DNA of 64,000 nucleotides from Aquilaria yunnanensis (taxonomy: Eukaryota > Streptophyta > Magnoliopsida > Malvales > Thymelaeaceae). Made by a program: the position numbers and the translations under genes. The DNA lies in the NCBI GenBank assembly GCA_039654915.1, contig CM077600.1, positions 72,115,992-72,179,991 on the forward strand, given 5' to 3'. Below are positions 17,578 through 38,726 of the stretch, piece after piece. Within the stretch, counting starts at the first letter, position 1; each line of letters begins with the position of its first letter. The notes beneath the pieces are model-generated. The model saw only the letters and a list, made by a program, of their open reading frames with translations, did no database searches and had not been told where the DNA came from.

Positions 17578-18480
17578 GCCTTTAGTGGTTGGTCATTTGA
17601 AGCATGAATTTGGCACTCCATTTGCTCCATTTTCTTGAGAGAAAATTATTCTCCTCCTATTTCCTTTAGAGGCCGAAATATTAAACATTTTTTGAGAGCA
17701 TTGTTGGTGGATTTACATTGAGATTGTTCATCTCAATTCAAGCCTCAAGGTGCTCCTCCAAGATCAAGTTCTTCCTCTTTTCTTCACACATAACCAAGAA
17801 GGAAGGTACACATTCTTTCTTGATTTAGTAGCATGCTAGGATTCATTCATTATTTACATGAATGTTCTTAGTAGCATGCTAGGATTTGTTCACCATAATA
17901 TGTATGTAAAACTAACATGCTATATCAAATGCACAAAATATGTTAAAAAAATTAGAATGATGCATGCTTGTATTCATGTTAAACTCAAATGATCAAAATG
18001 CATGTGGCATGTACATGAGTAGATAACATAAAGATATGTTATCATGAGATCCTGAAATTTTCAAACCATACCAATAAGGTTTAAACTGACAAATGTTCAT
18101 GTGTGCAATGAAGACATATGTATTAGACAACATTTCATAGTTTTAAACATGAACCAAGAAATGATTTTAGGAACTCCATTCTTAGCTGCAATCATGCATT
18201 TTTAGGTAAGTATGTGTGGCAACGTCGGGTTTTCTGGAGTCGCCACCAATCTGTTTTTTTCTTAGGTCGATTGGATACCTAAAATATGGTCTGCGAGAGT
18301 TCGGGGATCGGGAGTACGGTTACGTTAAAACAACTTTGTTAAAACGCCCAAAAATTGGCACCTTAGTTGATTTTAATTTTGTTTTACTTTGCTTTTAAAA
18401 CTTTTCAGTTAATTTAGATATTTTAGCTGAATTAGTCGAAAATGTGGATTTTGGTAATTAATTCGGATAAAATTTTATAC

Positions 18481-18698
18481 TTCCGAACCATGGACTCTGC
18501 CGAGTCATTTGGACACGGAAGATTTTGATTCCGAACCATGGACTCTGCCGAGTCATTTGGACACGGAATTTGGTGAAATTTTAAACAATCAATCCATATC
18601 GTAAAAATATGGATTTTTATCTTTTTATTTAATTTATTTATTTTAAAAGTTTGATATTTTCCAAACCGTAGATCCTGCCGGATCATCCGGATATGGAA
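18481..18698. repeat. Three copies of a 40-bp palindromic motif in the LTR (fourth at 20094-20133)
   Basis: Copies lie at 18481-18520, 18529-18568 and 18659-18698, with a fourth at 20094-20133. Each has an outer pair of the TTCC...GGAA kind, a middle pair (CCA/TGG or CCG/CGG) and an inner stem closing a four-base loop (GACTC-TGCC-GAGTC in copies 1 and 2, GATCC-TGCC-GGATC in copy 3, GATCC-TGGC-GGATC in copy 4). The partner bases change together. Confidence 0.85.
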
Positions 18699-19030
18699 AT
18701 TGATTTAATTTATCGTAATTATTTAATTCTTATTATTAATTTTTAGTTTAATTACTAAATTTATCTTTATATTTTTACTTTTTCTTTCTTTCTTTTTCTT
18801 CTTATTTTTACTTTTTAATTTTCTTTTCTTTTCTTTCTTTTGTTTTCTTTTTCTTATCTTTCTTTTCTTTTTCTTATCTTTTCTTTTTTTGATTTTTTTC
18901 TTGTTTAATGAAGGATATTTATTATTTAAAGAATTACTCAATTTATAAAAGAATTAAAAAATATTAATTTTTTTATTTAATAAGAAGTTAATTTAAAGGA
19001 ATCAAAGAATTTAAAAATAAAAATTTTGAT

Positions 19031-19124
19031 CATGGTACAGGGCGTTGTTACTCAGCCAGACCCTCTTCACCAGGTGAAGCAGCTCAAAAGCGGGCACGAG
19101 ACAGTTTCCAGCCAATATACCATG
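19031..19124. other. 94-bp non-AT-rich island with nested dyads inside the LTR
   Basis: A stretch of balanced base composition sits in very AT-rich DNA and is bounded by CATGGTA and TACCATG. Inside is the near-perfect palindrome CTTCACC-A-GGTGAAG. It is present in both full LTRs (second copy about 41863-41956) but not in the shorter solo LTR at 54859-57320. Function unknown. Confidence 0.6.
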
Positions 19125-20889
19125 AACTAAAATTTTTTATTTTTTTTTATTATTTTTTTATTTTTTTTTATTATTTTTTTTTATAAAAGATTAACCAAAA
19201 GTAATTGTTTTATTAAGAGAATCAAAAATTTATATGTATATTTTAAACAAAAGAAGAAAAGTTTTGATATTTATTTAATTTATTTTGGAATAAAATATTA
19301 TTTAACTGAAAACTTATATGTATTTTAAAACAAAAGTCTTGATATTTTTATTTTTTATATTCTTCTTTGTTTGATGAAAGATTTTTTTTTTAATTTTAAT
19401 TTATATTTCTGAAAATATATCTAATCAATAAGTCAAAAATATTTAAGAGAAAATTCAATTATTTTTGTTTTATTTTGTATTATTTTGAAATTATTTGATT
19501 AAGATTTTTATAAAGGAAACAAAAAGTTATATCTTTTAATAAGTAAAATATTACTGAATAAAATATTAACCCAAAATTTTTATTCTTTTCATTCTTTTTA
19601 TTAATAAAGAAAACTAAAAAAAATTATATTTTAAAAGAAATAAATAAAATATTATTGAAAAATATTAACTCAAAATTTACTCTTTTTATTCTTTTTATTA
19701 ATAAAGAAAACTAAAAAAAAGTTATATTTTAAAATAAATAAATAAAATATTACTGAAAAATATTAACCCAAAATTTACTCTTTTTATTCTTTTTAATAAA
19801 GAAAACTAAAAAAAATTATATTTTATTATTTTAAAAGAAATAAATTTTACTGAAAAATATTAACCCAAAAAAATTACCTTTTTTATTCTTTTTACTAAAA
19901 AATTTATATTTTATTATTTTAAATAAAATATTACTGAAAAATATTAACCCAAAAATTTTACGCTTTTTATTCTTTTTATTAATAAATAAAACTAAAAAAA
20001 TTATATATTAATAGATAATTAATATATTAGTCTAAAGTTTTTTTTTATTTTTTATAAAGAAAAAATTTATTTATATATTTTATTTAAAAATATTTCCGAG
20101 CCATGGATCCTGGCGGATCATTTGGTCATGGAGTTTTAATTTTTTTTTATTTCATTAATTATTAATTTTAAAGATGTATTAAAATAATGATTTTATGTTT
20201 ATTTATTTATTTATTTTATTTTTGAATTATTTCATTATGTTTGTTTATTAAAAGGAATAAAAACTTTGTTTCAAAATAAAAAAAAGTAATTTTTATTAGC
20301 CTTTAGAAAATTATTCACATAAAATTCCTTTTTTTATCTTTTAATCATAAAAAAATTCAATTAATAAAGTGGGGCTTTTTGGCCATCCACTTTAATAACA
20401 CAATAATAATAAAAGTTAGCACAATTAATATAGTTAGATTAGTTGGATTAGTTAGTTAATAACAATAAAAAAAGGTTAGTAAAAGCTAGATTAAATTAAT
20501 TAACAACAATAATAAAAATTAGCCAAGTTTAATTAAATTAATTGTTAACAACAATAATAAAAGTTAGCCAAGTTTAATTAAGTTAATTAATTAACAACAA
20601 TAATAAAAGAGTTAGCCAAGTTAATTAAGTTAATTAACCAAGTTAATTAAATTAATTAATTAACAACAATAAAAAAGTTAGTAAGTTAGTTGTTAGTTGT
20701 TATTTGTTAATAACAACAATAAAAGAAGGGTTAGTAATAAACAAATAATAAACAAACAAGTAAAAATTAAAAAGGTTAGTAATTAATTCTGCAAGAACAA
20801 AATAAAAAAGTTAGTGACTCAATAGAAAGAAATTGAAAAGTTGAACGATTAAATGAGAGTTTACCCTTTTAAAATCAATTTTTTGAATT

Positions 20890-21200
20890 TTATGGAAACA
20901 GGGAAACGACGACGAACGCAGGCGTGGCTGGGCGTGCAGGGGAGCAAGGGAGGAGGGGAGGGAGGCTGACGCGAGGGCGGCGTGCCAGGCGAGGCGGTAC
21001 GGCGGCAGGACGGCTACGGGCGAGGCGGCACGGTGGCGGGACGGCAACAGGCGAGGCAGCAAGGCGGCGGGACGACGCGGCGAGGGTAGGGTGACGCGGC
21101 GAGGGCGGCGCGGCGAGGCGGTATGGTGGCAGGACGGCGATGGGCGAGGCGGCACGGCGGCGGGACGGCAACGGGCGAGGAAGCACGGCGGCAGGAGGAG
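20890..21200. repeat. GC-rich minisatellite in the LTR leader
   Basis: Imperfect repeats of units such as GGCGAGGCGGCACGGCGG give a roughly 300-bp island of very high GC. On the coding strand it lies 200-500 bases downstream of the LTR TATA box, so it would be transcribed. It creates Arg/Pro/Ala-rich open frames (20811-21251 on the minus strand) that are better explained as repeat by-products, though a leader peptide cannot be excluded. It is absent from the solo LTR at 54859-57320. Confidence 0.8.
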
Positions 21201-21411
21201 AAAGAGAGAGAAAACGAGAGGAGAGAGAGAGAGAACAACGAAGGAGATCAAACGAAAGAGATGGTCAAATCGTAGAAAAATAAAATTTTGAGACTTTCTG
21301 GCAGAAGGAGGAGAGGCTAGGGAATAAGGCTGTAATTTTCTCTATTTTTAAAACGGAGCTCTGAACTTTTTTCTCTGATTTTCTGTGTGTTCAGCACTGA
21401 ATTTGGGGGGG

Positions 21412-21419
21412 TATTTATA
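21412..21419 (-). promoter_or_regulatory. TATA box of the 3' LTR
   Basis: TATAAATA on the minus strand, followed by CCCCCCC. The same box occurs at the same place in the other LTR (44247-44254) and in the solo LTR of this family (56818-56825). Confidence 0.65.
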
Positions 21420-21941
21420 GAAGGAGCTTAGCTGAACTGTGGACGGATAAATTAATAAAAAATATTAAACTTATCTTTTAAATTGGCAAAATGACAGTTT
21501 CAGTCCTTTACGTTACTCCAGCTCTGGATAAGCTCAGAAGCTTCTGATTTTGACAATTTTAACGTTTTCTGTCAATTTGGGCTAGAAACGTCCGTTTAGG
21601 CCCAAAATTGACGCGAAAAATTACCCAAAGCTCCTGAAACTTTCAGAATTTGTCAATTTTATCCGAAACTTCTCAATTTTGTCATTTTTACCTCAAACTT
21701 TTAATTTTTTTGTCATTTTTTTCTGAAATTTTATTTTTATTCCAAACACATACATATTCACACATATATTATTTTAAATCAAATCTTCTCAAAATAAAAA
21801 TATATTTTAAACTAATTAACATAATTAAAATTTTTTAGCAATAATAATAATAATAATAATAATTTTTTTAACTAGTTTTTTTTTTTTAAAAAATTTTTTT
21901 TTTTAAAAAAAAGGCCGGACGAAATTGGGTGTCAACAGCTG

Positions 21942-21950: not shown

Positions 21951-22064
21951 GCATGCTTCATGGGACATGATGTATGCAAAGTAGTAACCAAATTTCGTCC
22001 GTCTTAGCTAGCCATTGAGAACCTTCTCGCCGCCTAAACTATGTGGTTAAGGAAAATTTTTTTT

Positions 22065-25000
22065 AGAGCCTCTGCGATAAGAACTCTCCTATCGTTGAAG
22101 GGAAAATTTGATAATTTTGAGGTTAAGGGTCCTACCTTAGAACCTCGACGATAGGAACTCTCCTATCGTTTGAAGTAAAATTGATTGTTTTGAGGTTAAG
22201 GGTCCTACCTTAGAACTTCGACGATAGGAACTCTCCTATCGTTTGAAGGAAAATTAATGATTTTGAGGTTAAGGGTCCTACCTTAGAACCTCGACGATAG
22301 GAACTCTTCTATCGTTTGAAGTAAAATTGATTGTTTTGAGGTTAAGGGTCCTACCTTAGAACCTCGACGATAGGAACTCTCCTATCGTTTGAAGGAAAAT
22401 TGATGATTTTGAGGTTAAGGGTCCTACCTTAGAACCTCGACGATAGGAACTCTCCTATCGTTTGAAGGAAAATTGATGATTTTGAGGTTAAGGGTCTTAC
22501 CCTAGAACCTCGACGACAGGAACTCTCCTATCGTTTGAAGGAAAATTGTTTGAATGAGGTTAAGGGTCCTACCTTAGAACCTCGACGATAGGAACTCTCC
22601 TATCGTTTGAAGGAAAATTGATGATTTTGAGGTTAAGGGCCCTACCTTAGAACCTCGACGATAGGAACTCTCCTATCGTTTGAAGGAAAATTGATGATTT
22701 TGAGGTTAAGGGTCCTACCTTAGAACCTCGACAATAGGAACTCTCCTATCGTTTGAAGGAAAATTGTTTGAATGAGGTTAAGGGTCCTACCTTAGAACCT
22801 CGACGATAGGAACTCTCCTATCGTTTGAAGTAAAATTGATTGTTTTGAGGTTAAGGGTCCTACCTTAGAACCTCGACGATAGGAACTCTCCTATCGTTTG
22901 AAGGAAAATTGATGATTTTGAGGTTAAGGGTCCTACCTTAGAACCTCGACGATAGGAACTCTCCTATCGTTTGAAGGAAAATTGATGATTTTGAGGTTAA
23001 GGGTCCTACCTTAGAACCTCGACGATAGGAACTCTCCTATCACTTGAAGGAAAATTGTTTGAATGACGTTAAGGGTCCCACCTTAGAACCTCGACGATAG
23101 GAACTCTCCTATCGTTTGAAGGAAAATTGATGATTTTGAGGTTAAGGGTCCTACCTTAGAACCTCGACGACAGTAACTCTCCTATCGTTTGAAGGAAAAT
23201 TGATGATTTTGAGGTTAAGGGTCCTACCTTAGAACCTCGACGATAGGAACTCTCCTATCGTTTGAAGGAAAATTGATGATTTTGAGGTTAAGGGTCTTAC
23301 CTTAGAACCTCGACGACAGGAACTCTCCTATCGTTTGAAGGAAAATTGTTTGACTGAGGTTAAGGGTCCTACCTTAGAACCTCGACGATAGGAACTCTCC
23401 TATGGTTTGAAGGAAAATTGATGATTTTGAGGAGGTTAAGGGCCCTACCTTAGAACCTCGACAATAGGAACTCTCCTATCGTTTGAAGGAAAATTGATGA
23501 TTTTGAGGTTAAGGGCCCTACCTTAGAACCTCGACGATAGGAACTCTCCTATCGTTTGAAGGAAAATTGATTGTTTTGAGGTTAAGGGTCCTACCTTAGA
23601 ACCTCGACGATAGGAACTCTCCTATCGTTTGAAGGAAAATTGATGATTTTGAGGTTAAGGGTCCTACCTTAGAACCTCGACGATAGGAACTCTCCTCTCG
23701 TTTGAAGGAAAATTGATGATTTTGAGGTTAAGGGTCCTACCTTAGAACCTCAACGATAGGAACTCTCCTATCGTTTGAAGGAAAATTGTTTGAATGAGGT
23801 TAAGGGTCCCACCTTAGAACCTCGACGATAGGAACTCTCCTATCGTTTGAAGGAAAATTGATGATTTTGAGGTTAAGGGTCCTACCTTAGAACCTCGACG
23901 ACAGGAACTCTCCTATCGTTTGAAGGAAAATTGATGATTTTGAGGTTAAGGGTCCTACCTTAGAACCTCGACGATAGGAACTCTCCTATCGTTTGAAGGA
24001 AAATTGATGATTTTGAGGTTAAGGGCCCTACCTTAGAACCTCGACGATAGGAACTCTCCTATCGTTTGAAGGAAAATTGATGATTTTGAGGTTAAGGGTC
24101 CTACCTTAGAACCTCGACAATAGGAACTCTCCTATCGTTTGAAGGAAAATTGATGATTTTGAGGTTAAGGGCCCTACCTTAGAACCTCGACGATAGGAAC
24201 TGTCCTATCGTTTGAAGGAAAATTGATTGTTTTGAGGTTAAGGGTCCTACCTTAGAACCTCGACGATAGGAACTCTCCTATCGTTTGAAGGAAAATTAAT
24301 GATTTTGAGGTTAAGGGTCCTACCTTAGAACCTCGACGATAGGAACTCTCCTATCGTTTGAAGGAAAATTGATGATTTTGAGGTTAAGGGTCCTACCTTA
24401 GAACCTCGACGACAGGAACTCTCCTATCGTTTGAAGGAAAATTGTTTGAATGAGGTTAAGGGTCCTACCTTAGAACCTCGACGATAGGAACTCTCCTATC
24501 GTTTGAAGGAAAATTGATGATTTTGAGGTTAAGGGCCCTACCTTAGAACCTCGACGATAGGAACTCTCCTATCGTTTGAAGGAAAATTGATGATTTTGAG
24601 GTTAAGGGTCCTACCTTAGAACCTCGACAATAGGAACTCTCCTATCGTTTGAAGGAAAATTGATGATTTTGAGGTTAAGGGCCCTACCTTAGAACCTCGA
24701 CGATAGGAACTCTCCTATCGTTTGAAGGAAAATTGATTGTTTTGAGGTTAAGGGTCCTACCTTAGAACCTCGACGATAGGAACTCTCCTATCGTTTGAAG
24801 GAAAATTGATGATTTTGAGGTTAAAGGTCCTACCTTAGAACCTCGACGATAGGAACTCTTCTATCGTTTGAAGGAAAATTGATGATTTTGAGGTTAAGGG
24901 TCCTACCTTAGAACCTCGACGATAGGAACTCTCCTATCGTTTGAAGGAAAATTGTTTGAATGAGGTTAAGGGTCCCACCTTAGAACCTCGACGATAGGAA

Positions 25001-26290
25001 CTCTCCTATCGTTTGAAGGAAAATTGATGATTTTGAGGTTAAGGGTCCTACCTTAGAACCTCGACGACAGGAACTCTCCTATCGTTTGAAGGAAAATTGA
25101 TGATTTTGAGGTTAAGGGTCCTACCTTAGAACCTCGACGATAGGAACTCTCCTATCGTTTGAAGGAAAATTGATGATTTTGAGGTTAAGGGTCTTACCTT
25201 AGAACCTCGACGACAGGAACTCTCCTATCGTTTGAAGGAAAATTGTTTGAATGAGGTTAAGGGTCCTACCTTAGAACCTCGACGATAGGAACTCTCCTAT
25301 CGTTTGAAGGAAAATTGATGATTTTGAGGTTAAGGGCCCTACCTTAGAACCTCGACGATAGGAACTCTCCTATCGTTTGAAGGAAAATTGATGATTTTGA
25401 GGTTAAGGGTCCTACCTTAGAACCTCGACAACAGGAACTCTCCTATCGTTTGAAGGAAAATTGATGATTTTGAGGTTAAGGGCCCTACCTTAGAACCTCG
25501 ACGATAGGAACTCTCCTATCGTTTGAAGGAAAATTGATTGTTTTGAGATTAAGGGTCCTACCTTAGAACCTCGACGATAGGAACTCTCCTATCGTTTGAA
25601 GGAAAATTGATGATTTTGAGGTTAAGGGTCCTACCTTAGAACCTCGACGATAGGAACTCTCCTATCGTTTGAAGGAAAATTGATGATTTTGAGGTTAAGG
25701 GTCCTACCTTAGAACCTCGACGACAGGAACTCTCCTATCGTTTGAAGGAAAATTGTTTGAATGAGGTTAAGGGTCCCACCTTAGAACCTCGACGATAGGA
25801 ACTCTCCTATCGTTTGAAGGAAAATTGATGATTTTGAGGTTAAGGGTCCTACCTTAGAACCTCGACGACAGGAACTCTCCTATCGTTTGAAGGAAAATTG
25901 TTTGAATGAGGTTAAGGGTCCCACCTTAGAGCCTCGACGATAGGAACTCTCCTATCGTTTGAAGGAAAATTGATGATTTTGAGGTTAAGGGTCCTACCTT
26001 AGAACCTCGACGACAGGAACTCTCCTATCATTTGAAGGAAAATTGTTTGAATGAGGTTAAGGGTCCTACCTTAGAACCTCGACGATAGGAACTCTCCTAT
26101 CGTTTGAAGGAAAATTGATGATTTTGAGGTTAAGGGCCCTACCTTAGAACCTCGACGATAGGAACTCTCCTATCGTTTGAAGAAAAATTGATGATTTGAG
26201 GTTAAGGGCCCTTCCTTAGAACCTCGACGATAGGAACTCTCCTATCGTTTGATGGAAAATTGATGGAATGAGGTTAAGGAAATCTCCTTG
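22065..26290. repeat. 73-bp tandem repeat array, about 58 units, in the 3' region of the Ogre-like element
   Basis: The unit is 72-73 bases and contains CGATAGG-AACTCT-CCTATCG, a perfect 7-bp stem with a six-base loop. It also contains a second dyad, AGGTTAAGG...CCTTAGAACCT. Unit variants differ mainly in a short spacer (TGATGATTTT, TTGTTTGAAT or TTGATTGTTTT). These variants recur at multiples of the unit, for example every 10-16 units, which suggests higher-order duplication. Tandem arrays between integrase and 3' LTR are a known Ogre trait and can seed satellites. Confidence 0.95.
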
Positions 26291-26815: not shown

Positions 26816-27445
26816 TTATGGGATCGAACTGTTCGGGAAAGACTGTCGCGTCCAGTCTATCTGAATCATTGCTGGATCTGGTTCAGGAACAAAAGCTTGT
26901 ATTTTATCTAGCAATTCTTCAGCAGTTGTTGCGGATATTATGATTCGCCGTGCCACTCTTGATATAAAATTCTTCTGCATAGCATAATCCATAAAAGCTA
27001 TCAGACCTGTAAAGAAATTGTTAACATTTAAAAGCCCAATGGGTTTCTTATGCAAATTAAGTTGGGCCATGGAAGCAATTTGAAAGACTTCTCCCAATGT
27101 GCCAAAACCACCTGGTAGAGCGATAAAAGCATCAGCATTTAAAAGCATTTGTAACACACGCTCTTGTAAATTTTTAACCACTAATTCTTCTCCAATCGTG
27201 CCCCCAGAAATAAATTTCAGAGGTCCAGGGATAATGCCCAGAACTTGACTTCCTCCTAGAGATGCTGCTGATGCTACACCTCCCATTAATCCGACACTAC
27301 CTCCTCCATAAACTAAATGTATTTTTCGCTCAGCTAATACTCTACCCAAATGGTTGGCTGCTTTTAAATACTCTTCATCTTTTCCAGGAAAAGCCCCAGA
27401 AAATACACAAATACTTCGGGATTTACGAGTTGGGGTTTTCTCCAT
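26816..27445 (-). CDS. LOG-like: LOG-type cytokinin riboside 5'-monophosphate phosphoribohydrolase, intronless, carried by the retrotransposon
   Basis: LOG enzymes cut the ribose phosphate from cytokinin nucleotides and so release active cytokinin in one step. The 209-residue product matches the family length. It has the Rossmann-type start (ICVFSGAFPGK, residues 12-22), LVYGGGSVGLMG (44-55), the Glu-Arg pair (95-96) and the hallmark PGGxGTxxE as PGGFGTLGE (111-119). The frame is intact. I chose the internal ATG at 27445 because it gives the family N-terminus and follows a TATA box by about 30 bases; an in-frame ATG at 27505 would lie upstream of that box. Host LOG genes have several introns, so the lack of introns suggests capture through RNA. 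It lies on the element's coding strand, downstream of integrase. Substrate and activity are untested. Confidence 0.88.
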   Translation of the reverse strand: MEKTPTRKSRSICVFSGAFPGKDEEYLKAANHLGRVLAERKIHLVYGGGSVGLMGGVASAASLGGSQVLGIIPGPLKFISGGTIGEELVVKNLQERVLQMLLNADAFIALPGGFGTLGEVFQIASMAQLNLHKKPIGLLNVNNFFTGLIAFMDYAMQKNFISRVARRIIISATTAEELLDKIQAFVPEPDPAMIQIDWTRQSFPNSSIP

Positions 27446-27475: not shown

Positions 27476-27485
27476 TATATTTATA
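27476..27485 (-). promoter_or_regulatory. TATA box ahead of the LOG-like gene
   Basis: TATAAATATA on the minus strand, 30 bases before the LOG start codon, in the context CATCTCTATAAATATATCC. The similar CATCACTATAAATG precedes cysteine-rich gene copy 3. This suggests that accessory genes have their own promoters rather than relying on the LTR. Confidence 0.6.
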
Positions 27486-27534
27486 GAGATGAAGAGATAA
27501 GGCAATAATTTTATTTTTCAAGAATGGATACATT

Positions 27535-27985
27535 ATTGCCAGCTATTCATAGTAGTCACGGGTATGACTCTGGTCAGGTATGGGTACACTATCGTTAAAA
27601 GAGGAGGAAAATTTTCAAAATAGCTGCTAGCATGTACAGTAGTCGCGACTGTAGCTTATGTCAGGAGTAGGTACATGATTGTCGGATGAGAAGGAAAATT
27701 TCAAAAGTGGCAGGTATATACAGTAGTCATAATTATAGCTCATGTCAGGAGTGGGTACATTATGGGAGGAAAATTTCAAAAGCGTCAGCTAGCATGTACA
27801 GTATCGTGACTATGGCTTATGTCAAGAGTGGATACATTATTGCTGAAAGAGGAGGAAAATTTCAAAAGCGACAGCTAGCACGTACAGTAATCGTGACTTT
27901 GGTTCATGTCAGGAGTGGATACATTATTACCAAAAGGGGAGGAAAATTTCAAAAGCGACAGCTAGCACGTACAGTAATCGTGACC
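27535..27985 (-). repeat. About 88-bp tandem repeats between LOG and the cysteine-rich genes
   Basis: Five or six imperfect units share GGAGGAAAATTTCAAAAGCG, GTACAGTAATCGTGAC and GTCAGGAGTGGATACATTAT. Related single units occur after the other two cysteine-rich genes (about 28736-28813 and 29564-29651). The array therefore looks like an expansion of the intergenic spacer of that gene cluster. Confidence 0.8.
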
Positions 27986-28034: not shown

Positions 28035-28583
28035 CTATGAATCAGTGATTTGCATCTCATCTAGCTTTTTCACAAACTGGCAAACAGGGTCGTTTAGGGT
28101 CAGATTCCCAAGACTGTAACGTTCTCGTTCTTTTTGGAGAATTATCCATAATCCAACAACCTCAAATTGCACTATTCCGCAAGAATGCGCTTCAAGAACC
28201 TCTCGGATATCTTCCAGAGATTCCTTACGCAAGCCATTCTTGATGAATTTTATTCTATCATTACGATTTCTGGTGATCACTCCTGGAGAACGACATTTAT
28301 TGCCGCAAATCCACCATCCACAATTGTGACAGACGCCTAGCCTCTTTGCTCTTCTCTTTTTGGCATAAACGCTTTTACCAAAGCCGGGCATACGGGGAAA
28401 GAACGCATCTGGAACTTCACCAGCCGAACGAACTTTAGCTTCGATTAGCCATCGCACATTATCAGGAATGCCTTTGTGCATAAATAGTCGGAATCGTTCA
28501 CATCTAGCTTGATAAACCTTTTTAAGAACATTTATTGGGAAAGAAGGGAAATATTTTCGTAGAGCGGAAAGAGAAGGCTCCAT
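28035..28583 (-). CDS. Cysteine-rich nucleic-acid-binding-like protein, copy 3
   Basis: 182 residues, full-length homologue of the two neighbouring copies. The ATG at 28583 aligns with their starts; an in-frame ATG five codons upstream would add a short extension. A basic segment (YAKKRRAKRLGVC) runs into a finger C-x2-C-x4-C-x3-C at residues 85-97 (CHNCGWWICGNKC), then a conserved tail around FIKNGLRKESLEDIREVLE. Finger plus preceding arginine-rich stretch resembles the nucleic-acid-binding proteins of carlavirus-like RNA viruses, several of which suppress RNA silencing. That relationship is inferred from the motif only. The C-terminal half has no family I recognise. A TATA box lies at 28691-28698. 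The frame is intact although the sequence differs widely from copies 1 and 2, which suggests selection for the protein. Confidence 0.75.
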   Translation of the reverse strand: MEPSLSALRKYFPSFPINVLKKVYQARCERFRLFMHKGIPDNVRWLIEAKVRSAGEVPDAFFPRMPGFGKSVYAKKRRAKRLGVCHNCGWWICGNKCRSPGVITRNRNDRIKFIKNGLRKESLEDIREVLEAHSCGIVQFEVVGLWIILQKERERYSLGNLTLNDPVCQFVKKLDEMQITDS

Positions 28584-28690
28584 TGATGAAGGAGGCATTT
28601 AAGAGAAAAAGAAAGAAATTAGTGATTGTAGGAAATGGAAATAACTGAATTTGGGAGTTATGGAGTACCGTATCCAGAAGGAAGAACACG

Positions 28691-28698
28691 CATTTATA
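28691..28698 (-). promoter_or_regulatory. TATA-like box ahead of cysteine-rich gene copy 3
   Basis: TATAAATG on the minus strand, 108 bases before the start codon, followed by a pyrimidine-rich leader. The homologous position before copy 2 reads CTACAAATG (about 29517-29525), a weaker version. Confidence 0.45.
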
Positions 28699-28847
28699 GT
28701 GATGAAAGGATAATGCGTTTATTACACTTACGGAAGTAAGTACATTATTGCCAAAAGAAAAGACAAATGACAGCTTATATGTACAGCAATCATGACTGTG
28801 GCTCTCATCTTCCACTAATTCATGTCCAGTAATGGCTTCAATGCCTT

Positions 28848-29396
28848 CTATAAGTCGGGGATTTGCTTCCCATCTAGTTTTCTTACAAACTGACAAACGG
28901 GGTCGTTTAAAATCACATTCCCAAGACTGTAACGGTTTCGTTCTTTATGGTAAGTCCTCCATAAACCGATAATTTCACCTTGCACTTTTCCACAAGAATG
29001 CGTTTCAAGAGTCTCTCGGATATCTTTCAGAGACTCCTTACGCAGGCCATTCTTAATGAATTTTCTTTTATCTTCACGATTTATGGAGATGTATCCTAAA
29101 GAGCGACATTTAGTATTACAATTCCATCGCCCACATTTATAACACACGCCTAGTCTCTTTGCTCTTCGCCTTTTGGCATAACGGCTTTTACCTAAACCGG
29201 GCATGCGGGGCATAAATGCATCTGGAACTTCACCCGCCAAACGGACCTTAGCTTCAATTATCCACTGCACATTATTGGGAATGCCTTTGCGTGTAAAAAC
29301 TCTGATTCTTTCACATCTAGCAAGGTAGATCTTTTTAAGGACTTTTAGTGGGAGGGAAGGAAAGTATTTTCGCAGTACAGAAAGAGTAGAATCCAT
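28848..29396 (-). CDS. Cysteine-rich nucleic-acid-binding-like protein, copy 2
   Basis: 182 residues, starting MDSTLSVLRKYFPSLP. The zinc-finger-like core is at residues 85-97 (CYKCGRWNCNTKC), preceded by SRYAKRRRAKRLGV. The N-terminal 50 residues look helical (KKIYLARCERIRVF), and a conserved segment FIKNGLRKESLKDIRETLE follows the finger. Start codon, length and finger spacing are the same as in copies 1 and 3, with substitutions spread along the protein. The repeat unit of gene plus spacer is about 800-840 bases. The viral-type binding function is inferred from the finger and basic stretch. Confidence 0.75.
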   Translation of the reverse strand: MDSTLSVLRKYFPSLPLKVLKKIYLARCERIRVFTRKGIPNNVQWIIEAKVRLAGEVPDAFMPRMPGLGKSRYAKRRRAKRLGVCYKCGRWNCNTKCRSLGYISINREDKRKFIKNGLRKESLKDIRETLETHSCGKVQGEIIGLWRTYHKERNRYSLGNVILNDPVCQFVRKLDGKQIPDL

Positions 29397-29685
29397 TGAT
29401 GAGAGAAGAATTTGAGAGAAGAGGGAAATGAATCAGTTATTGCAGGAAACTGGAATAATCGACTTTAGAAGTCACGGGGTATCTTATCTGTTGTTTAATC
29501 AGAAGGAAGAACACGCATTTGTAGTGATGAAAAGGGATAACGTGTCGATTACACTTAGGGGAGCATGTACATCTGTCAAAAGAAAATGCAAATTTTTCCA
29601 AATATAACAAACTGTATGTACAGTAATTGTGACTGTGGCTCACATCTTCCATTGGTTTTACGTCCAGTAACGGCATTAACGGCTT

Positions 29686-30234
29686 CTATGAGTCGAGGAT
29701 CTGCTTCCCATCCAGCTTTCTTACAAACCGGCAAACAGGGTCGTTTAAAGTCAGATTCCCGGGACTGTAACGGTCTCGTTCTTCATGAAAAATACTCCAT
29801 AAATCAAGAATTTCACGTTGCACAGATCCACAAGAATGCGTCTCAAGAGTCAATTGGATATCATCCAATGAGTCCTTACTCAAGCCATTCTTGATGAACC
29901 GTATTTTATCTTCTCGATTATTGGAGATCATTCCTAAAGAACGACACCTAGTTTTACAAGTCCACCTACCACATTTATGGCAGACTTGTAATCTTTTCGC
30001 TCTTCTTTTTCTGGCATAAGAACTTTTGCCAACACCAGGCATGTAAGATGCAAATGTCTCTGGGATTTCACCTGCCAGACGAACCTTGGCTTCGATTAAC
30101 CACCGTACATCTTCAGGTATTCCTTTGTGCATCAGAGCTCTTAATCGTTCACAGCGAACTCGGTAGATCTTTTTTAGGATGTTCATTGGGAGAGAAGGGA
30201 AATACTTTCGCAAGGCAGAAAAAGTAGGATCCAT
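29686..30234 (-). CDS. Cysteine-rich nucleic-acid-binding-like protein, copy 1
   Basis: 182 residues and first of the three in transcription order, 1.36 kb downstream of the integrase stop. Basic stretch SSYARKRRAKRLQV, finger CHKCGRWTCKTRC (Cys85, Cys88, Cys93, Cys97), then FIKNGLSKDSLDDIQLTLE. The frame is intact, with no signal peptide or membrane segment. The upstream leader (30235-30340) is pyrimidine-rich near the ATG, like those of copies 2 and 3. It could be expressed from its own promoter or by splicing; the sequence does not decide. Alternatives are a plant zinc-finger protein of unknown family or a retrotransposon-specific regulator. Confidence 0.75.
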   Translation of the reverse strand: MDPTFSALRKYFPSLPMNILKKIYRVRCERLRALMHKGIPEDVRWLIEAKVRLAGEIPETFASYMPGVGKSSYARKRRAKRLQVCHKCGRWTCKTRCRSLGMISNNREDKIRFIKNGLSKDSLDDIQLTLETHSCGSVQREILDLWSIFHEERDRYSPGNLTLNDPVCRFVRKLDGKQILDS

Positions 30235-31596: not shown

Positions 31597-34500
31597 TTAT
31601 GCAAAGTATTTCTTTACTGCATCCGAATTTACTGGCTTCGGTAATTCTCGTCCATCCATTTCTGTCAGAATTAGTGCCCCTCCTGAAAATGCTTTCTTCA
31701 CGACATATGGCCCGTCATAATTTGGTGTCCATTTTCCTCTTGAATCATGTTGCATGGGTAAAATTTTCTTGAGCACTATGTCACCCTCGTGAAATTGTCG
31801 TGGGCGAACCTTTTTGTTGTAAGAACGAATCATCCTTCTTTGATAAAGTTGTCCATGGCAGAGGGCTATCGTTCTTCTTTCATCAATTAGATTTAATTGC
31901 TCGTATCTAGCTTTGACCCATTCTGCTTCTCTTAATTGAGTATCCATTAGTACCCTTAATGAAGGTATTTCAACTTCGATGGGCAATACAGCCTCCATAC
32001 CGTATACCAGAGAAAAAGGTGTTGCTCCAGTAGAAGTACGAGTAGAAGTTCTATAAGCATGTAGTGCAAAAGGTAACATCTCATGCCAGTCCTTGTAAGT
32101 GACGATCATCTTTTCAACAATTCTCTTGATATTTTTATTGGCCGCTTCTACTGCACCATTCATCATTGGTCGATAAGGTGCCGAATTGAGATGTTTGATT
32201 TTGAACTGCCGGCACAAAGTCTGCATCATTGCATTGTTCAGGTTCGTGGCATTGTCTGAGATGATACATTCCGGCGGCCCATAACGACAAATGATTTCTT
32301 TCTTAATGAACCGGCATACCACCTTTTGAGTCACACTTGCATATGACATAGCTTCTACCCATTTAGTGAAGTAGTCAATTGCCACTAGGATGAATTTGTG
32401 ACCATTGGAAGCTTTAGGGGTAATGGCTCCAATGACGTCAATTCCCCACATGGCAAAAGGCCAAGGTATTGCTGTTACATTAAGAGGGGTGGGTGGAGCT
32501 TGGATCTTGTTGGCATATATTTGACATTTGTGACATTTTCTCACGTGATTAATACAATCACTTTCCAATGTGAGCCAATAGTAGCCAGCCCTCATTATTT
32601 GTCTTGCCATGGTATGACCACTAGTGTGTGCTCCACATATTCCAGAATGAACTTCTTCCATGATCTTTCGTGCTTCATGAGTATCTACACAGCGAAGTAG
32701 CATCGAGTCTGGGGTTTTCTTGTAGAGTATGTCTAGGTTTAAAAGAAAACCCATTGACAATCTTCGTAGAAATTTCTTGTCATTTTCTGATGCTTCTAGT
32801 GGATATGTTCGTTCTTGGAGGTATTTCTTGATATCATGATACCAAGGCTTTCCATCCAATTCTTCTTCGATGCTCATGCAATAAGCTGGAGAATCTATTA
32901 TTTTCATCTCGAACACAGGAGTATGCTCAGGGTCGCTTATCTTGTACATAGCAGCCAAAGTAGCTAAAGCGTCTGGGATTTGATTATCTTCCCTTGGAAG
33001 ATGATGGAAACTTATACTGTTAAATCTTCGAGTCATGTCTAGTATAAGCTTTTGGTAAGGGATTAATTTTGAATCTCTTGTCTCCCATTCTCCATTGATT
33101 TGATATATGACTAATGCGGAATCCCCATAGACTCGGAGATCTCGCACTTTCAAATCCAATGCCATTTGGAGTCCCATAGCACATGCTTCATACTCTACTA
33201 TATTGTTGGTACAAGGAAATGTAATTTTTGCTGTGAGGGGAAACTGCTCTCCGCTTGGAGAGATGAGTATAGCTCCGATCCCTTGTCCCAAAGCATTAGA
33301 TGCTCCATCGAATGCCATTTTCCATGTTTCATTTTCTTCATCGACTTCCTGTTCTATCGTCATTATATCTCCATCAGGAAAGTCCATTCTCATGGGCTCA
33401 TAATCCTCCAATGCTCTATCAGCCAGATATTCAGCGATCACACTTCCTTTTACGGCCTTTTGGGTGACATACTGTATGTCGTATTCAGATAACAGCATTT
33501 GCCATTTTGCAATCCTGCCTGATAAAGCGGGTTTCTCGAAAATGTACTTAATGGGGTCAGTCTTGGAGATCAGTAATGTTGTGTTGTTGAGCATGTAGTG
33601 TCGTAGTCGATGTGCTACCCATGCAAGGGCACAACAGGACTTTTCTACTATTGAGTATTTAGCTTCATATGTGGTAAGCTTTTTGCTCAAATAGTAAATT
33701 GCATGCTCCTTCTTGCTTGTCTCATCACGTTGACCCAATACGGATCCTAATGAAGAATCCTGTATGGATAAATATAGAATCAACGGTTCTCCGGATCGAG
33801 GTGGTATCAAGACTGGTGGATTTGATAGATATCGTTTGATTTTCTCGAACGCTTCTTGGCATTCGTTATTCCACTCAATCGGATTGTTCTTCTTTAGTGA
33901 TTTGAAAAGCGGTTCACACTTGGACGTCAATTGTGATATGAACCTTGCTATGAAGTTGATTCTACCCAGAAAACTTCTTACTTGTTTTGGAGTCTTCGGG
34001 GGTTGCATTTCTTGTATCGCTTTGACTTTACTCGGGTCAACTCGAATCCCGTCCTTGCTGACTATGAAACCCAATAACTTTCCTGAAGAGGCTCCAAAAG
34101 TACATTTGGCAGGATTCAACTTCAATTGATATTTGCGAAGTCTATCGAATAGTTTTCTTAGCACTTTTAGATGCCCCCCAGCAGTGAAAGTTTTGGCGAT
34201 CATGTCGTCCACATATACTTCAATTTCTTTATGCATCATGTCATGGAACAACGTGACCATGGCTCTTTGATATGTAGCACCAGCATTCTTTAACCCGAAA
34301 GGCATCACCTTATAGTAGAAGGTACCCCAAAGGGTAATAAAAGCAGTTTTTATCATGTCATCTGGATCAAGTTTGATTTGATTGTATCCAGAAAAACCAT
34401 CCATGAAGGAAAAGTAGGAGTTTCCTGCGGTATTATCCACCAGTGTATCAATATGAGGAAGTGGGAAGTTATCTTTAGGACTGGCTTCGTTCAAAGGCCG

Positions 34501-34995
34501 GTAGTCCTGACAAACTCTTAGTTTCCCACTTTCTTTCTTTTCGACTGGGACAATGTTAACCACCCATTCTGTATATTCAGCGACCCCAAGAAATCCTGCA
34601 TCCCACAGCTTTCGAATCTCGTCTTTTACTCTTAAGATTAACTCCGGCTTTAATCTTCGTAACTTCTGTCTGACAGGCTTCGCCCCAGGCTTCAAAGGTA
34701 TTTTGTGTAGTACTATGTCTGAGCTTAAGCCAGGCATATCTTGGTATGACCAAGCGAATACATCCACATATTCTTTCAATAAATGGACTAATTCTTCTTT
34801 TTCTTCAGGAGGGAATAAAGTGCCAATCTTGACTTCTTTTACATCCTGACTGTCTCCCAGGTTGAATACCTCAGTTGGTTCTTGACTTGTTGCTCTTTCT
34901 TTTTCATCTCGCTCAATCATTTTTAATAGCTCAGGAGATACTTGAAGATCTTCGTCATCCGAGTCGGTAGTGTTTACAGGATTATCAAAGTTCAT
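31597..34995 (-). CDS. pol: Ogre-type Pol: reverse transcriptase, two RNase H domains, integrase
   Basis: 1132 residues with the ATG at 34995, though splicing would join it to Gag from 35026. Reverse transcriptase spans about 110-310 with YVDD at 261-264. A first RNase H lies at about 395-520. A second, archaeal-type RNase H lies at about 560-690 (Asp563, Glu601, Asp625, Asp685), which is typical of the Tat lineage. Integrase has its HHCC finger ending at Cys821/Cys824 and the catalytic triad Asp853, Asp914 and Glu950 with 35-residue spacing. No chromodomain follows. All active-site residues are present and the frame is open, so the enzyme set looks functional. It copies the element's RNA and inserts the DNA. 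Confidence 0.95.
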   Translation of the reverse strand: MNFDNPVNTTDSDDEDLQVSPELLKMIERDEKERATSQEPTEVFNLGDSQDVKEVKIGTLFPPEEKEELVHLLKEYVDVFAWSYQDMPGLSSDIVLHKIPLKPGAKPVRQKLRRLKPELILRVKDEIRKLWDAGFLGVAEYTEWVVNIVPVEKKESGKLRVCQDYRPLNEASPKDNFPLPHIDTLVDNTAGNSYFSFMDGFSGYNQIKLDPDDMIKTAFITLWGTFYYKVMPFGLKNAGATYQRAMVTLFHDMMHKEIEVYVDDMIAKTFTAGGHLKVLRKLFDRLRKYQLKLNPAKCTFGASSGKLLGFIVSKDGIRVDPSKVKAIQEMQPPKTPKQVRSFLGRINFIARFISQLTSKCEPLFKSLKKNNPIEWNNECQEAFEKIKRYLSNPPVLIPPRSGEPLILYLSIQDSSLGSVLGQRDETSKKEHAIYYLSKKLTTYEAKYSIVEKSCCALAWVAHRLRHYMLNNTTLLISKTDPIKYIFEKPALSGRIAKWQMLLSEYDIQYVTQKAVKGSVIAEYLADRALEDYEPMRMDFPDGDIMTIEQEVDEENETWKMAFDGASNALGQGIGAILISPSGEQFPLTAKITFPCTNNIVEYEACAMGLQMALDLKVRDLRVYGDSALVIYQINGEWETRDSKLIPYQKLILDMTRRFNSISFHHLPREDNQIPDALATLAAMYKISDPEHTPVFEMKIIDSPAYCMSIEEELDGKPWYHDIKKYLQERTYPLEASENDKKFLRRLSMGFLLNLDILYKKTPDSMLLRCVDTHEARKIMEEVHSGICGAHTSGHTMARQIMRAGYYWLTLESDCINHVRKCHKCQIYANKIQAPPTPLNVTAIPWPFAMWGIDVIGAITPKASNGHKFILVAIDYFTKWVEAMSYASVTQKVVCRFIKKEIICRYGPPECIISDNATNLNNAMMQTLCRQFKIKHLNSAPYRPMMNGAVEAANKNIKRIVEKMIVTYKDWHEMLPFALHAYRTSTRTSTGATPFSLVYGMEAVLPIEVEIPSLRVLMDTQLREAEWVKARYEQLNLIDERRTIALCHGQLYQRRMIRSYNKKVRPRQFHEGDIVLKKILPMQHDSRGKWTPNYDGPYVVKKAFSGGALILTEMDGRELPKPVNSDAVKKYFA

Positions 34996-35026: not shown

Positions 35027-35231
35027 CTGCATTATCCAGAGAGAAAAGAAAGAGAAGAGAGAAAAAAAAAAAATGGCACGAATGAGATGGATGCAAACTG
35101 GTACTTTATTTACAATGTGCATAAATCACAACTTTATTGGAATAAAAAGCAATAACTAAAAGGTTCACTTAAACAAAGACTACACCCTATTGATTGAACC
35201 TTTCTTTAGGAGGTTTTTACTATTAGATTAC
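35027..35231 (-). other. Predicted intron joining Gag-protease to Pol
   Basis: The donor AAA/GTAATC overlaps the last Gag codon and stop. The acceptor ATGCAG follows a long pyrimidine tract (35040-35080). Removing 205 bases deletes the Gag stop codon and places Pol in frame with Gag-protease. An intron at this point is established for Ogre elements and sets the ratio of Gag to Pol. Confidence 0.8.
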
Positions 35232-38200
35232 TTTGGAAAGCTTTCAATTATAACAGGCAGTTCTATCGCCTCCCAATTGTTCAGCACATCCCGTGGGCCA
35301 CAAGGTTGAATGAGCTCCTCCTCTTCAGGTGAATCGCTGATGATTGCCTGAATAGAAAGACTTTCAAAAGACTTGTTGATGTTGATAGTCAGCTTGCCTT
35401 CATTGTCATTTTTCGGAATGAGACCACCACTCACGAACGTTTCGGTGATTTCAGGGATATCCAGATTTCTTTCCTGGAGAGGATGCCCTGTTAATCGTGC
35501 AATCCTCTTTTCTCTTTTTTCAGCTATTGCCTTCATTTTATCATGTCTTGTCGGTGTGAAGCCTAGGCCGTATTTCCCTTCATTTGCGGATATTTTCAAT
35601 GGCTCTAGGATTCCTTGTAAATCTTGTCCCAAACCTAACCCCGGTGAGTATCCTCCTTTTATCATGAGTTTGGCGACCATGCGACTTGTTTTAGAGATGT
35701 TAGGAATGGGTTCTTCTCCATATTCACTGACATAAGCAGCATTGACAATCTCAAAAGACCTGAAGGAGCAATCAGGTATATTTTCATTGACCTCAACATA
35801 TTGAGCATCCGCAGGTCTAGATAGCAGAATGTCTTCTTCAGCAAAGACTGTGATTATCTTTCCTTCAATGATGAATTTCATTTTTTGATGTAATGAGGAA
35901 GGAATTGCTCCAGCCATATGGATCCATGGTCTTCCCAGTAGACAAGTATAAGATGGAGAAATGTCCATGACTTGGAGTGTGATATGGAAAAGACAGGGAC
36001 CAATCCCAATTGGTAGCTCTATTTCTCCAACCACATCTCTCTTTGTTCCGTCAAATGCTCGAACAACAATATGACTGTTGTTGAGGTGTGATGGGTCTAA
36101 ACCGATCTTATGTAAAGTTTCTAATGGCATTACATTTAGAGCTGATCCATTGTCGATCAGAACTCTAGCCATAATCCGATCTTTGTATTTAATCGAAATA
36201 TGTAGAGCCTTAGAGTGACCCCTTCCTTCTGCTGGTATCTCATCGTCAGTGAATGTGATGAGATTTTGTGCCGTGATGTTGTTGACAAGGTGGTCAAAGT
36301 TGTTCACGGAGATATCTTGTTCAACATAAGCCTTATTCAGGACTTTGAGAAGAGCTTCTCGATGGGCATCAGAACTTAAGAGCAATGAAAGTATGGAGAT
36401 CTTTGCTGGCAGACGGTTCAACTGCTCCACGATGCTGTATTCACTTTGCTTTATGAGTTTGAGAAACTCAGTAGCTTGTTCATCTGTTACTGCTCGAGGC
36501 ATCTCTTGCTCTTTAGATGTGTTAATAGGTCCATTTGCTGGATCCGTAACATTCTTCTCTTGTTGGAGCTTGTTCATTTGCTCGGGAGAATAACACCGAC
36601 CACTTCTAGTCATGCCCCCAACTTCTAACGGAGTTGATGTGATGTTAGAAGTATAGCCATAGTTCCATGGAACAGTTTTGTCTGATTTGTACGGGAATGG
36701 CTTTGGAACTTGAATTCTTAAAGGCTTGAGAGCAGATTTTGAGATTGGAATGACTAGTGGCCTTGGCATGATATTGACTTCTTGTTCTTTAATTATCACA
36801 TTCACGTCATCCTCTTTATCTGACATAAAAACGATGATTTGAGAGGAGTCCATGAGACTTTGTAGACTTTTACGGAATTCTGGGCATTCTTGGATAGAAT
36901 GACTCTTACTGTTATGAAAGTTGCACCATTCCTCATGCTCGACTTCTTTATTTCCAGAAGACTTTCCTATGATAATCCCTTCTTTCACAAGGCATGAATA
37001 TACATGCTTAAGAGGGGTTATGATATCATTGACTGTTTTCTTCATCGGCCAGTATTCTTCCATCATATTGACTGGTTTGGCTTGATGAGGAGGCAATGGA
37101 TTATGAGTGACGTTTGGTTCATCGGAAAAGTCCAACCACTTTGACTCAATTAATTGTTGGACTATACGCTTCAATGCTATGCAATTTTCGAGTCCGTGGC
37201 CCACGGCACCATCATGATATGGGCAATTTAGTTTAGGGTCATACCATGTTGGATATGGGGGTTCGAATGGCCTTGTGGGAATTGGGTGAATGAGTTGGCT
37301 CTGGATGAGTTTTGGATATAACTCAGTATAAGTCATGGGAATCGGTGCGAAAATTTCTCTTGGTCTTGGTGCAGGCATTGGAGGAGTCGGAACAGGTGGC
37401 CGTAACTGATTAGGCCTGTTGAGAGGATAATTGTTGGGTCTATTGGGAAGATAATCACTGGGCCTATTTGGAGGATAATCATTGGGCCTATTGGTAGGAT
37501 AATAATTGGGCCTGTTGGCAGAATAGGATAGGCGAGGTCCGGTAGCCACGGTACCCACGAGGGGAATCCCTCTTCCTCGTCCGATTTGTTGTATTTCTTC
37601 ATCTTTTCTTCTGGATGGTCCTCCTCTTTTCATAGGATCACTAAAGGACTCAGTAATCTTCCCGGTCCTGATACCATGCTCGATCCTTTCTCCAGACATG
37701 ACTACGTCGGAGAAGTTAGCTGCCGCATTGCCAATAAGTTTGTCATAATATGGGTATTTCAGTGTCTGGACAAACAAAGTGACCATTTCTCTTTCTGTCA
37801 TGGGTGGCTGTACTTGTGCAGCTAAGTCCCTCCATCGTTGGGCGTATTCCTTAAAAGTTTCTGTTTTTTTCTTCTCCATGTTTTGGAGAGTTTGGCGATC
37901 CGGAGCTAAGTCCATAACATGTTTATAGTTGCCGATGAAGGCCTGAGCAAGGTCATTCCAAGTTTTTATGTTTCTTGGACCTTGGCTTAGATACCACTGT
38001 AATGCTGATTTTGTGAGACTTTCCTGAAAAAGTGCGATCCACACCTTCTCATCTTTGGTAAGTGGTTGTAGTCTTCTGAGAAACAAAGTGATGTGAGTGA
38101 TGGGATCACTCGTTCCATCGTATTTTACGAAATCTGGCACCTTAAAATCTGAAGGGATTACGTCGTCTGGCACTAAGCAGAGGTCATCCACTGAAAGGGA

Positions 38201-38539
38201 TCCGAATATAGTGCCTCCTTCAATGGCTCTCAGTCTTTTCTCTATTGTCTCGATTTTTTGAGATTCTGCTTCATCTTTTGGTAATGTCTTCTTCTCTTCC
38301 TGTACAGTGTCTTGTTTCAGGTGAACACTAGCAGAGGGTCCTGATTCTTGAAACAGGTTTTCTTGGACTGAGACTCGTTGCGGGGTGAATCCCGGGGGAT
38401 AAGTGGGATCTTGTACTTCTTTGATGGGGACTTGAGTTGCTTTCCCTTTGATTAATTCCATCAATTGTTTCATCTGTTCTGACATACTTTCAATCTTGGA
38501 CTCCATCTCCATGAGACGTCCTTCGGCTTGTTCTGCCAT
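35228..38539 (-). CDS. gag-pro: Ogre-type Gag-protease with G-patch
   Basis: 1103 residues. A coiled-coil start (1-35) is followed by the retrotransposon gag domain (about 130-290). Next is a Pro/Asn repeat of NRPNDYPP-like units (342-376), then two Cys/His fingers of unusual C-x2-H...H-x4-C form (439-453 and 539-552). The aspartic protease is at about 780-895, with Asp796-Asn-Gly and LLGRPWI at 867-873. A G-patch (about 955-1000, GGYSPGLGLGQ) follows. Catalytic DNG in place of DTG or DSG is seen in some retrotransposon proteases. Gag forms the particle and the protease matures it. The final codon overlaps the intron donor. Confidence 0.93.
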   Translation of the reverse strand: MAEQAEGRLMEMESKIESMSEQMKQLMELIKGKATQVPIKEVQDPTYPPGFTPQRVSVQENLFQESGPSASVHLKQDTVQEEKKTLPKDEAESQKIETIEKRLRAIEGGTIFGSLSVDDLCLVPDDVIPSDFKVPDFVKYDGTSDPITHITLFLRRLQPLTKDEKVWIALFQESLTKSALQWYLSQGPRNIKTWNDLAQAFIGNYKHVMDLAPDRQTLQNMEKKKTETFKEYAQRWRDLAAQVQPPMTEREMVTLFVQTLKYPYYDKLIGNAAANFSDVVMSGERIEHGIRTGKITESFSDPMKRGGPSRRKDEEIQQIGRGRGIPLVGTVATGPRLSYSANRPNYYPTNRPNDYPPNRPSDYLPNRPNNYPLNRPNQLRPPVPTPPMPAPRPREIFAPIPMTYTELYPKLIQSQLIHPIPTRPFEPPYPTWYDPKLNCPYHDGAVGHGLENCIALKRIVQQLIESKWLDFSDEPNVTHNPLPPHQAKPVNMMEEYWPMKKTVNDIITPLKHVYSCLVKEGIIIGKSSGNKEVEHEEWCNFHNSKSHSIQECPEFRKSLQSLMDSSQIIVFMSDKEDDVNVIIKEQEVNIMPRPLVIPISKSALKPLRIQVPKPFPYKSDKTVPWNYGYTSNITSTPLEVGGMTRSGRCYSPEQMNKLQQEKNVTDPANGPINTSKEQEMPRAVTDEQATEFLKLIKQSEYSIVEQLNRLPAKISILSLLLSSDAHREALLKVLNKAYVEQDISVNNFDHLVNNITAQNLITFTDDEIPAEGRGHSKALHISIKYKDRIMARVLIDNGSALNVMPLETLHKIGLDPSHLNNSHIVVRAFDGTKRDVVGEIELPIGIGPCLFHITLQVMDISPSYTCLLGRPWIHMAGAIPSSLHQKMKFIIEGKIITVFAEEDILLSRPADAQYVEVNENIPDCSFRSFEIVNAAYVSEYGEEPIPNISKTSRMVAKLMIKGGYSPGLGLGQDLQGILEPLKISANEGKYGLGFTPTRHDKMKAIAEKREKRIARLTGHPLQERNLDIPEITETFVSGGLIPKNDNEGKLTININKSFESLSIQAIISDSPEEEELIQPCGPRDVLNNWEAIELPVIIESFPK

Positions 38540-38726
38540 TAATCTTGTTTGGAGTCGAGTTGAATATCGGTGTTGAGGTCCAATTTTACCCTTTTAAAGG
38601 AATATTTATTTTATTAGATTCTATGTGTGTATGATTGATGTGATGGATGCATGCATGAATATTGTAAATACTTGGTGAAAGAAGAACTATAATGGAGTTT
38701 CTCAATTACATTCAGCAAAGGTTTGT

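Follow-up and report, generated by a model that had tools for sequence, protein, structure and literature searches.

An Ogre-type retrotransposon of Aquilaria yunnanensis with a 3' cassette of a LOG gene and three genes for putative relatives of betaflexivirus nucleic-acid-binding proteins

Ogre elements are long terminal repeat (LTR) retrotransposons of the Ty3/gypsy group (OTA, Tat clade), and a survey includes a second RNase H and an intron-like spacer between gag-pro and pol among their criteria, with a plant mobile domain open reading frame (ORF) in 57% of Ogre elements (PMC6317226). The 64,000-nt stretch of A. yunnanensis DNA analysed here (the window; contig CM077600.1, positions 72,115,992 to 72,179,991) contains an element with the same second RNase H, plant-mobile-domain ORF and spacer, as well as large LTRs and a tandem array. 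It differs in having small genes on the same strand at its 3' end: three encoding nucleic-acid-binding proteins (NABPs) with apparent kinship to those of betaflexiviruses, and one for LOG (cytokinin riboside 5'-monophosphate phosphoribohydrolase). The survey predicted extra ORFs from 250 codons upward, a limit that the present genes, with 182 and 209 codons, do not reach (PMC6317226).

On its sequence, the locus is an Ogre element with NABP and LOG accessory genes. We regard as about evenly balanced the proposal that this is an Ogre copy with a 3' cassette of three NABP paralogues and LOG, in which the NABPs would blunt host silencing and LOG would release cytokinin. Viral NABPs are small proteins regarded as silencing suppressors and also as transcription regulators. 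Transposon-encoded proteins known to act on host silencing are few. LOG-like extra ORFs were reportedly found in Athila-like elements by Steinbauerova and co-workers, which would be the same kind of event, the capture of a LOG-type gene by a plant Ty3/gypsy element; the present case differs in that the element is of Ogre type, LOG is joined to NABPs, and copies and selection were measured. For the proposed role, a counterpart is VANC of the Arabidopsis VANDAL transposons, an anti-silencing protein that induces loss of DNA methylation (PMC5735166). Both would be transposon-encoded proteins directed against host silencing, whereas VANC belongs to another element class; the comparison concerns the proposed role (PMC5735166).

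The NABP genes and their probable viral kinship

The three NABP genes, identified from the ORF list and Pfam, have 182 codons each and occupy 28035..28583 (copy A), 28848..29396 (copy B) and 29686..30234 (copy C) of the minus strand. Copy A has a further in-frame ATG five codons upstream, giving 187 residues and reaching 28598; its 182 residues are counted from the aligned ATG. A preliminary description, made from the letters of the window alone, had reported three intact genes of this length downstream of integrase on the coding strand, and both the ORF coordinates and the order of Pfam domains agree. The alignment also upholds its report of a basic YAxxRRAKRL stretch and a C-x2-C-x4-C-x3-C finger, present in all three window copies. 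Among 21 aligned copies, three of the finger cysteines are invariant and C93 is found in at least 90%.

Profile searches against the viral families suggested by that description placed all three copies above the curated Pfam cut-offs. Copies A, B and C scored 26.6, 34.1 and 28.2 bits with Viral_NABP (PF05515, cut-off 23 bits) and 21.9, 24.7 and 27.9 bits with Carla_C4 (PF01623, cut-off 20.9 bits), and both families were matched at E ≤ 0.01 by all 21 stop-free aligned copies, of which the window supplied 3 and other parts of the genome 18. None of nine reversed or shuffled controls matched either viral family, the best match to another family having an E-value of 0.0061, below its cut-off; chance or composition as the source of the profile match is thereby ruled out. 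The gag-pro, pol and ORF1 products of the element had no match to Viral_NABP or Carla_C4.

Structural comparison with Foldseek against a viral library ranked betaflexivirus proteins best among the named matches, at E-values of 0.23 and above from two poor models (mean predicted local distance difference test, pLDDT, of 45 and 48). The top viral matches are named NABP or RNA silencing suppressor, the names being the library's own. Copy C retrieved nothing from the PDB at E ≤ 1, and a profile search of the PDB gave one match (E 0.6–0.66). In PHROGs, a single match was obtained for the NABPs, with copy A (E 0.069), and these proteins matched nothing in NCBIfam or in phage records.

Taken from the profile evidence, homology of the NABPs to the betaflexivirus nucleic-acid-binding family is very probable. 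This kinship is well supported and is compatible with capture from a virus, with transfer in the reverse direction or with a common source. The proteins share with the betaflexivirus NABPs (PF05515, PF01623) profile scores above the cut-offs and a four-cysteine finger preceded by an arginine-rich stretch. They differ in being longer than the matched part, which is confined to residues 33–122 of 182, in having conserved ends, the residues beyond the match being also conserved between copies, and in occurring usually in three to four copies. Since they are encoded in an LTR retrotransposon, they are relatives of Viral_NABP and Carla_C4 and not viral members.

The description had further noted many substitutions without a stop, and had proposed an analysis of the ratio of non-synonymous to synonymous rates (dN/dS). 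Pairwise protein identity among the three copies is 121–129 of 182 residues, with no gap and no stop, and dN/dS is 0.30 for A–B, 0.25 for A–C and 0.26 for B–C, not near 1 (bootstrap 95% limits inside 0.14–0.47, with upper limits of 0.39–0.47). In residues 55–100 it falls to 0.12–0.22. When 130 substitutions were placed neutrally in 2000 simulations, 1.2% of the results stayed stop-free, and the minimum dN/dS of 0.34 exceeded the observed 0.25–0.30. Silent divergence is 0.38–0.46 in residues 101–182 (the last 82 codons) against 0.68 or more before residue 101, and the lower value may reflect gene conversion between the NABP copies.

Anatomy, age and spread of the element

The complete element measures 26,556 bases from LTR to LTR, with cassette and pol on the minus strand. 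Its 5' LTR (41047..44770, minus strand) and 3' LTR (18215..21937, minus strand) were delimited by blastn of each against the other and by their TG..CA ends, and the outer side of each carries GTATG as a 5-bp target duplication. Read from the 5' LTR along the minus strand, the order is ORF1 (38727..40445), with DUF7745 (2.5e-55) and plant mobile domain (PMD, 6.6e-09) matches in Pfam; a gag-protease open frame with a G-patch domain (35228..38593); a 205-nt stretch (35027..35231); an ORF for reverse transcriptase (RT), RNase H, second RNase H and integrase (31597..34995); NABP genes C, B and A; LOG; a 73-bp array; and the 3' LTR. The 205-nt stretch, at the gag-pro/RT junction, is a predicted intron, with GT..AG ends and flanking frames that join without a stop after its removal. 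In the pol ORF, RT_RNaseH covers residues 403–505, RVT_3 570–680 and Integrase_H2C2 770–827, which places the second RNase H between the first and integrase. The array adjoining the 3' LTR (22063..26279) consists of 57.9 copies of its 73-bp unit, which carries the inverted repeat ACGATAGGA/TCCTATCGT. The pol product had no match in IMG/VR, and no Rfam family was matched within the window.

The second RNase H, the plant mobile domain ORF and the intron-like spacer support the earlier designation as Ogre-like by the criteria of the survey (PMC6317226). On sequence grounds, the element is best classed as a recent insertion belonging to an Ogre family (Ty3/gypsy, Tat clade) of high copy number. 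Its LTRs are 99.3% identical by blastn; their alignment of 3727 columns has 20 substitutions and 5 gap columns, and the Kimura two-parameter divergence of 0.0054 corresponds to an insertion age of about 0.2–0.4 million years at assumed substitution rates. Silent divergence among copies A, B and C is 0.57–0.86, more than 100 times that of the LTRs, and hence the NABP triplet long predates the insertion in the window and was carried through many successive transpositions.

The cassette is found far beyond this insertion. Genome searches covered the 842-Mb assembly (GCA_039654915.1; 345 contigs) and scored the best 150 candidates each, so that counts are lower bounds and biased to intact copies. 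In the NABP family search, all of the best 150 of 7051 first-look candidates were above the cut-off, a few with one internal stop, and there were no matches in 14 control genomes. With copy B as query, the best 150 of 8653 candidates (window included) were all stop-free and 99–100% identical over 182 residues; with LOG, the best 150 of 3660 were all 100% identical over 208 residues, and 7 of the first 10 LOG places have a copy-B place on their own strand, some 2 kb upstream. We infer from these near-identical sequences that the cassette family probably underwent a recent burst. A one-off insertion, which by the preliminary description's own account would have refuted it, is ruled out by the genome-wide occurrence, with at least 150 places encoding copy B. 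None of the three outcomes listed there as refuting has thus come true; viral kinship, selection and multiple occurrence are supported, and silencing suppression and acquisition from a virus stay proposals.

Twenty ten-kb stretches were annotated, chosen by eye at intervals along the NABP-search list together with one tandem pair, which again favours intact copies. Their gene order is consistent with C-B-A-LOG. Three NABP genes occur in 14 of them, four in 3 and two in 3, and a LOG match, in some cases partial, was found in 19; the stretch with none (L013) has its last NABP next to an LTR piece.

Three other features of the window were recorded. At 54859–57320 there is a solo LTR related to the element family (pieces 82–87% identical), with ATAAC flanking both sides. 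A viral movement-protein domain (PF01107, 9.5e-16) is encoded at 11460–12131 on the plus strand and is followed by open pieces in one frame; the region to about 15 kb looks like an integrated caulimovirus-type remnant. A piece of a DDE_Tnp_4 transposase (1.8e-13) lies at 58742–59125 on the minus strand.

LOG, promoters and derivatives without pol

The LOG gene, the promoter shared within the cassette and the derivatives lacking pol are absent from the preliminary description. LOG is an intronless gene of 209 codons (26816..27445, minus strand), located 0.6 kb downstream of copy A on the same strand. Its product matches Lysine_decarbox in Pfam (1.6e-30), its best PDB match is Arabidopsis At2g37210 (7.9e-52, 89 of 199 residues identical), and it scores 149.6 bits with TIGR00730 (cut-off 96.35); with the NCBI equivalog CtkRMPhLog, a model for prokaryote annotation, it reaches 98.8 bits, short of the cut-off of 300. 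Likeness to At2g37210 and the PGGxGTxxE motif are shared with plant LOG enzymes. The motif is intact in the window as PGGFGTLGE, a form found in 13 of 20 copies (window included), the other 7 being altered at one residue. Unlike those enzymes, the element LOG is intronless, lies inside a retrotransposon and, in the window, carries another residue in place of the lysine found in the Arabidopsis protein after the conserved arginine. A bacterial origin is disfavoured, the two best PDB matches being Arabidopsis proteins; word-based scans, an insensitive method, confirmed no LOG relatives in prokaryote and viral contigs.

A TATA box, CTATAAAT, is located 41 bp before the LOG ATG (27479..27486, minus strand), and 23 of 25 other copies share it. 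The same box precedes NABP copy A (28692..28699, minus strand; shared by 27 of 28 other copies), and at the corresponding place of copy B (29517..29524, minus strand) the window has CTACAAAT where 24 of 28 other copies have CTATAAAT. The core promoter of LOG (TATA at 27486) is homologous to that of copy A (28699), the local alignment scoring 27 where the best of 1000 dinucleotide shuffles scored 21. For the region upstream of copy B the shuffle test gave no support, 97 of 1000 shuffles being equally good and the aligner having used another part; in the multiple alignment, the copy B site is in register with those of LOG and copy A. Upstream of LOG, 4.6 copies of an 87-bp unit (27598..27984) are homologous to the spacers between the NABP genes. 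The cassette genes probably have transcripts of their own, distinct from the genomic RNA.

Among the 20 annotated stretches, pol lies upstream of the cassette in 7 (L012, L013, L016, L019, L021, L022 and L023), and in 12 no pol was found yet the cassette is kept (L009, L010, L011, L014, L015, L017, L018, L020 and L025–L028). L024 was excluded from these 12, having LTR pieces in opposite orientation upstream of the cassette. Five pol-less elements (L010, L014, L025, L026 and L028) have a common gag deletion junction that joins residues 1–38 to about residue 892. In L009, L014 and L026, less than 1 kb separates the gag start from LTR sequence on its upstream side, which leaves no space for the 1.7-kb ORF1. 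In L026, the cassette-strand ORFs of at least 110 codons are the three NABPs (C shortened to 168), LOG and one 127-codon ORF at the far end. The pol-less derivatives contain, between the gag remnant and the NABP spacer, roughly 2–3 kb that blastn does not match to the window; for the open stretches that L018 and L026 have upstream of the NABPs, Pfam gave nothing better than E 0.19. A direct repeat of 955 bp (98.6% identity), its copies about 4 kb apart, occurs at L029:4893-5847 and L026:1-955, with arrays at the outer sides, and L009 with its neighbour L032 includes an array of more than 11 kb related to the 73-bp array of the window.

That the cassette genes are kept together, even without pol, suggests that they matter for the spread of the element. 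Retention in these 12 pol-less elements would also be explained if the NABPs were a nucleocapsid-like coat of the element's RNA with a preference for that RNA; such a role would suit a basic stretch that adjoins the finger, and a gag-pro in which Pfam gave no zf-CCHC knuckle at E ≤ 0.01. As it leaves both LOG and the separate TATA boxes of the cassette genes unexplained, we consider packaging quite unlikely.

Selection on the cassette and its possible roles

Across genomic copies, the ratio of non-synonymous to synonymous polymorphism (pN/pS) is 0.24–0.42 in pol-bearing elements, 0.28–0.43 in the pol-less group, which here has 13 members with L024 among them, and 0.33–0.47 in the five with the common gag junction. 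For changes common to at least two copies, taken as inherited, the ratio of non-synonymous to synonymous changes (N/S) is 0.21 for copy C, 0.48 for copy B, 0.25 for copy A and 0.27 for LOG, and for private changes it is 0.82, 0.54, 0.78 and 0.47, respectively. Inherited changes are thus constrained and private ones less so, which indicates that the proteins were under selection while the family spread and that constraint weakened after insertion. Neutral decay of the NABPs is ruled out by the simulation together with this contrast, which is slight for copy B. The gene trees of the cassette genes conflict, with pol-bearing and pol-less elements intermixed; this points to recombination among elements, and the constraint seen in the pol-less group may therefore predate the loss of pol. 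We are nearly certain of the anatomy of the element and of selection on the cassette as described.

The same data bear on whether the cassette genes are passengers, captured without a role and riding on a successful element. Broken copies are numerous, and private changes are near neutral for copies C (0.82) and A (0.78), as would be expected of passengers; against this stand the constraint on inherited changes (N/S 0.21–0.48), the between-copy dN/dS of 0.25–0.30 maintained over a long divergence, and the conserved TATA boxes, in view of which we hold this explanation to be highly improbable.

Under the proposal with which we began, the NABPs, as basic zinc-finger proteins, would bind nucleic acid and dampen the RNA silencing that the host directs at the element, as their viral relatives reportedly do. 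Within those cells LOG would supply active cytokinin and thereby favour dividing cells, from which new insertions can enter the germ line. By analogy with the viral proteins, suppression of silencing is the leading candidate function, and we put the chance that it is what the NABPs mainly do at just short of even.

A different emphasis is possible, in which silencing suppression is secondary or absent and the element manipulates the host cell: nuclear NABPs would drive division as transcription regulators and LOG would raise cytokinin, giving more dividing cells bound for the germ line. In chrysanthemum virus B, the NABP reportedly functions as a transcription factor and makes cells proliferate. 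NABPs and LOG occur together in 19 of the 20 sampled stretches, the LOG promoter is of the copy A type, and LOG is constrained (inherited N/S 0.27) and identical in all of the best 150 places. The replaced lysine after the conserved arginine and the motif altered in 7 of 20 copies speak against a LOG-dependent scheme of this kind, which we judge somewhat unlikely.

Several observations weigh against the silencing proposal and the evidence beneath it. The function given to the NABPs is borrowed from viral relatives that are themselves regarded as transcription regulators too. Their kinship to those relatives was assessed with profiles; none of the Foldseek matches of the two models was significant, and searches of IMG/VR and of prokaryote contigs gave no NABP relative. 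Many genomic copies are broken, those without an indel or stop relative to the window frame numbering 8 of 25 for copy C, 13 of 28 for copy B, 15 of 26 for copy A and 11 of 19 for LOG. Inherited and private N/S are nearly alike for copy B (0.48 and 0.54), and closely similar pairs of copies have pN/pS of 0.47–0.81. As for separate transcription, copy C has no homologue of the LOG/A-type promoter, only its leader being homologous, and the TATA box of copy B is altered in the window.

A broader conception treats the Ogre family as an intracellular pathogen with effectors, in which the virus-type NABPs counter silencing or reprogramme transcription and LOG gives active cytokinin, with the result that cells harbouring active elements divide and contribute to the germ line. 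The cassette would then be a unit of selection, kept by pol-less derivatives, which exchange it through recombination and propagate with borrowed machinery. We think it unlikely that this conception is correct as a whole.

A recently multiplied giant retrotransposon thus carries, under selection, probable members of a protein family known from RNA viruses together with a hormone-activation enzyme. The pol-less copies that keep the cassette offer a natural experiment on the genes that such elements need. If the proposed function holds, it would link the counter-defence of viruses with that of transposons, would give one reason why Ogre-type elements fill plant genomes and, the genes being small and intact, would make host-cell manipulation by retrotransposons directly testable. 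Plant jumping genes may, like viruses, carry genes that manipulate their host.

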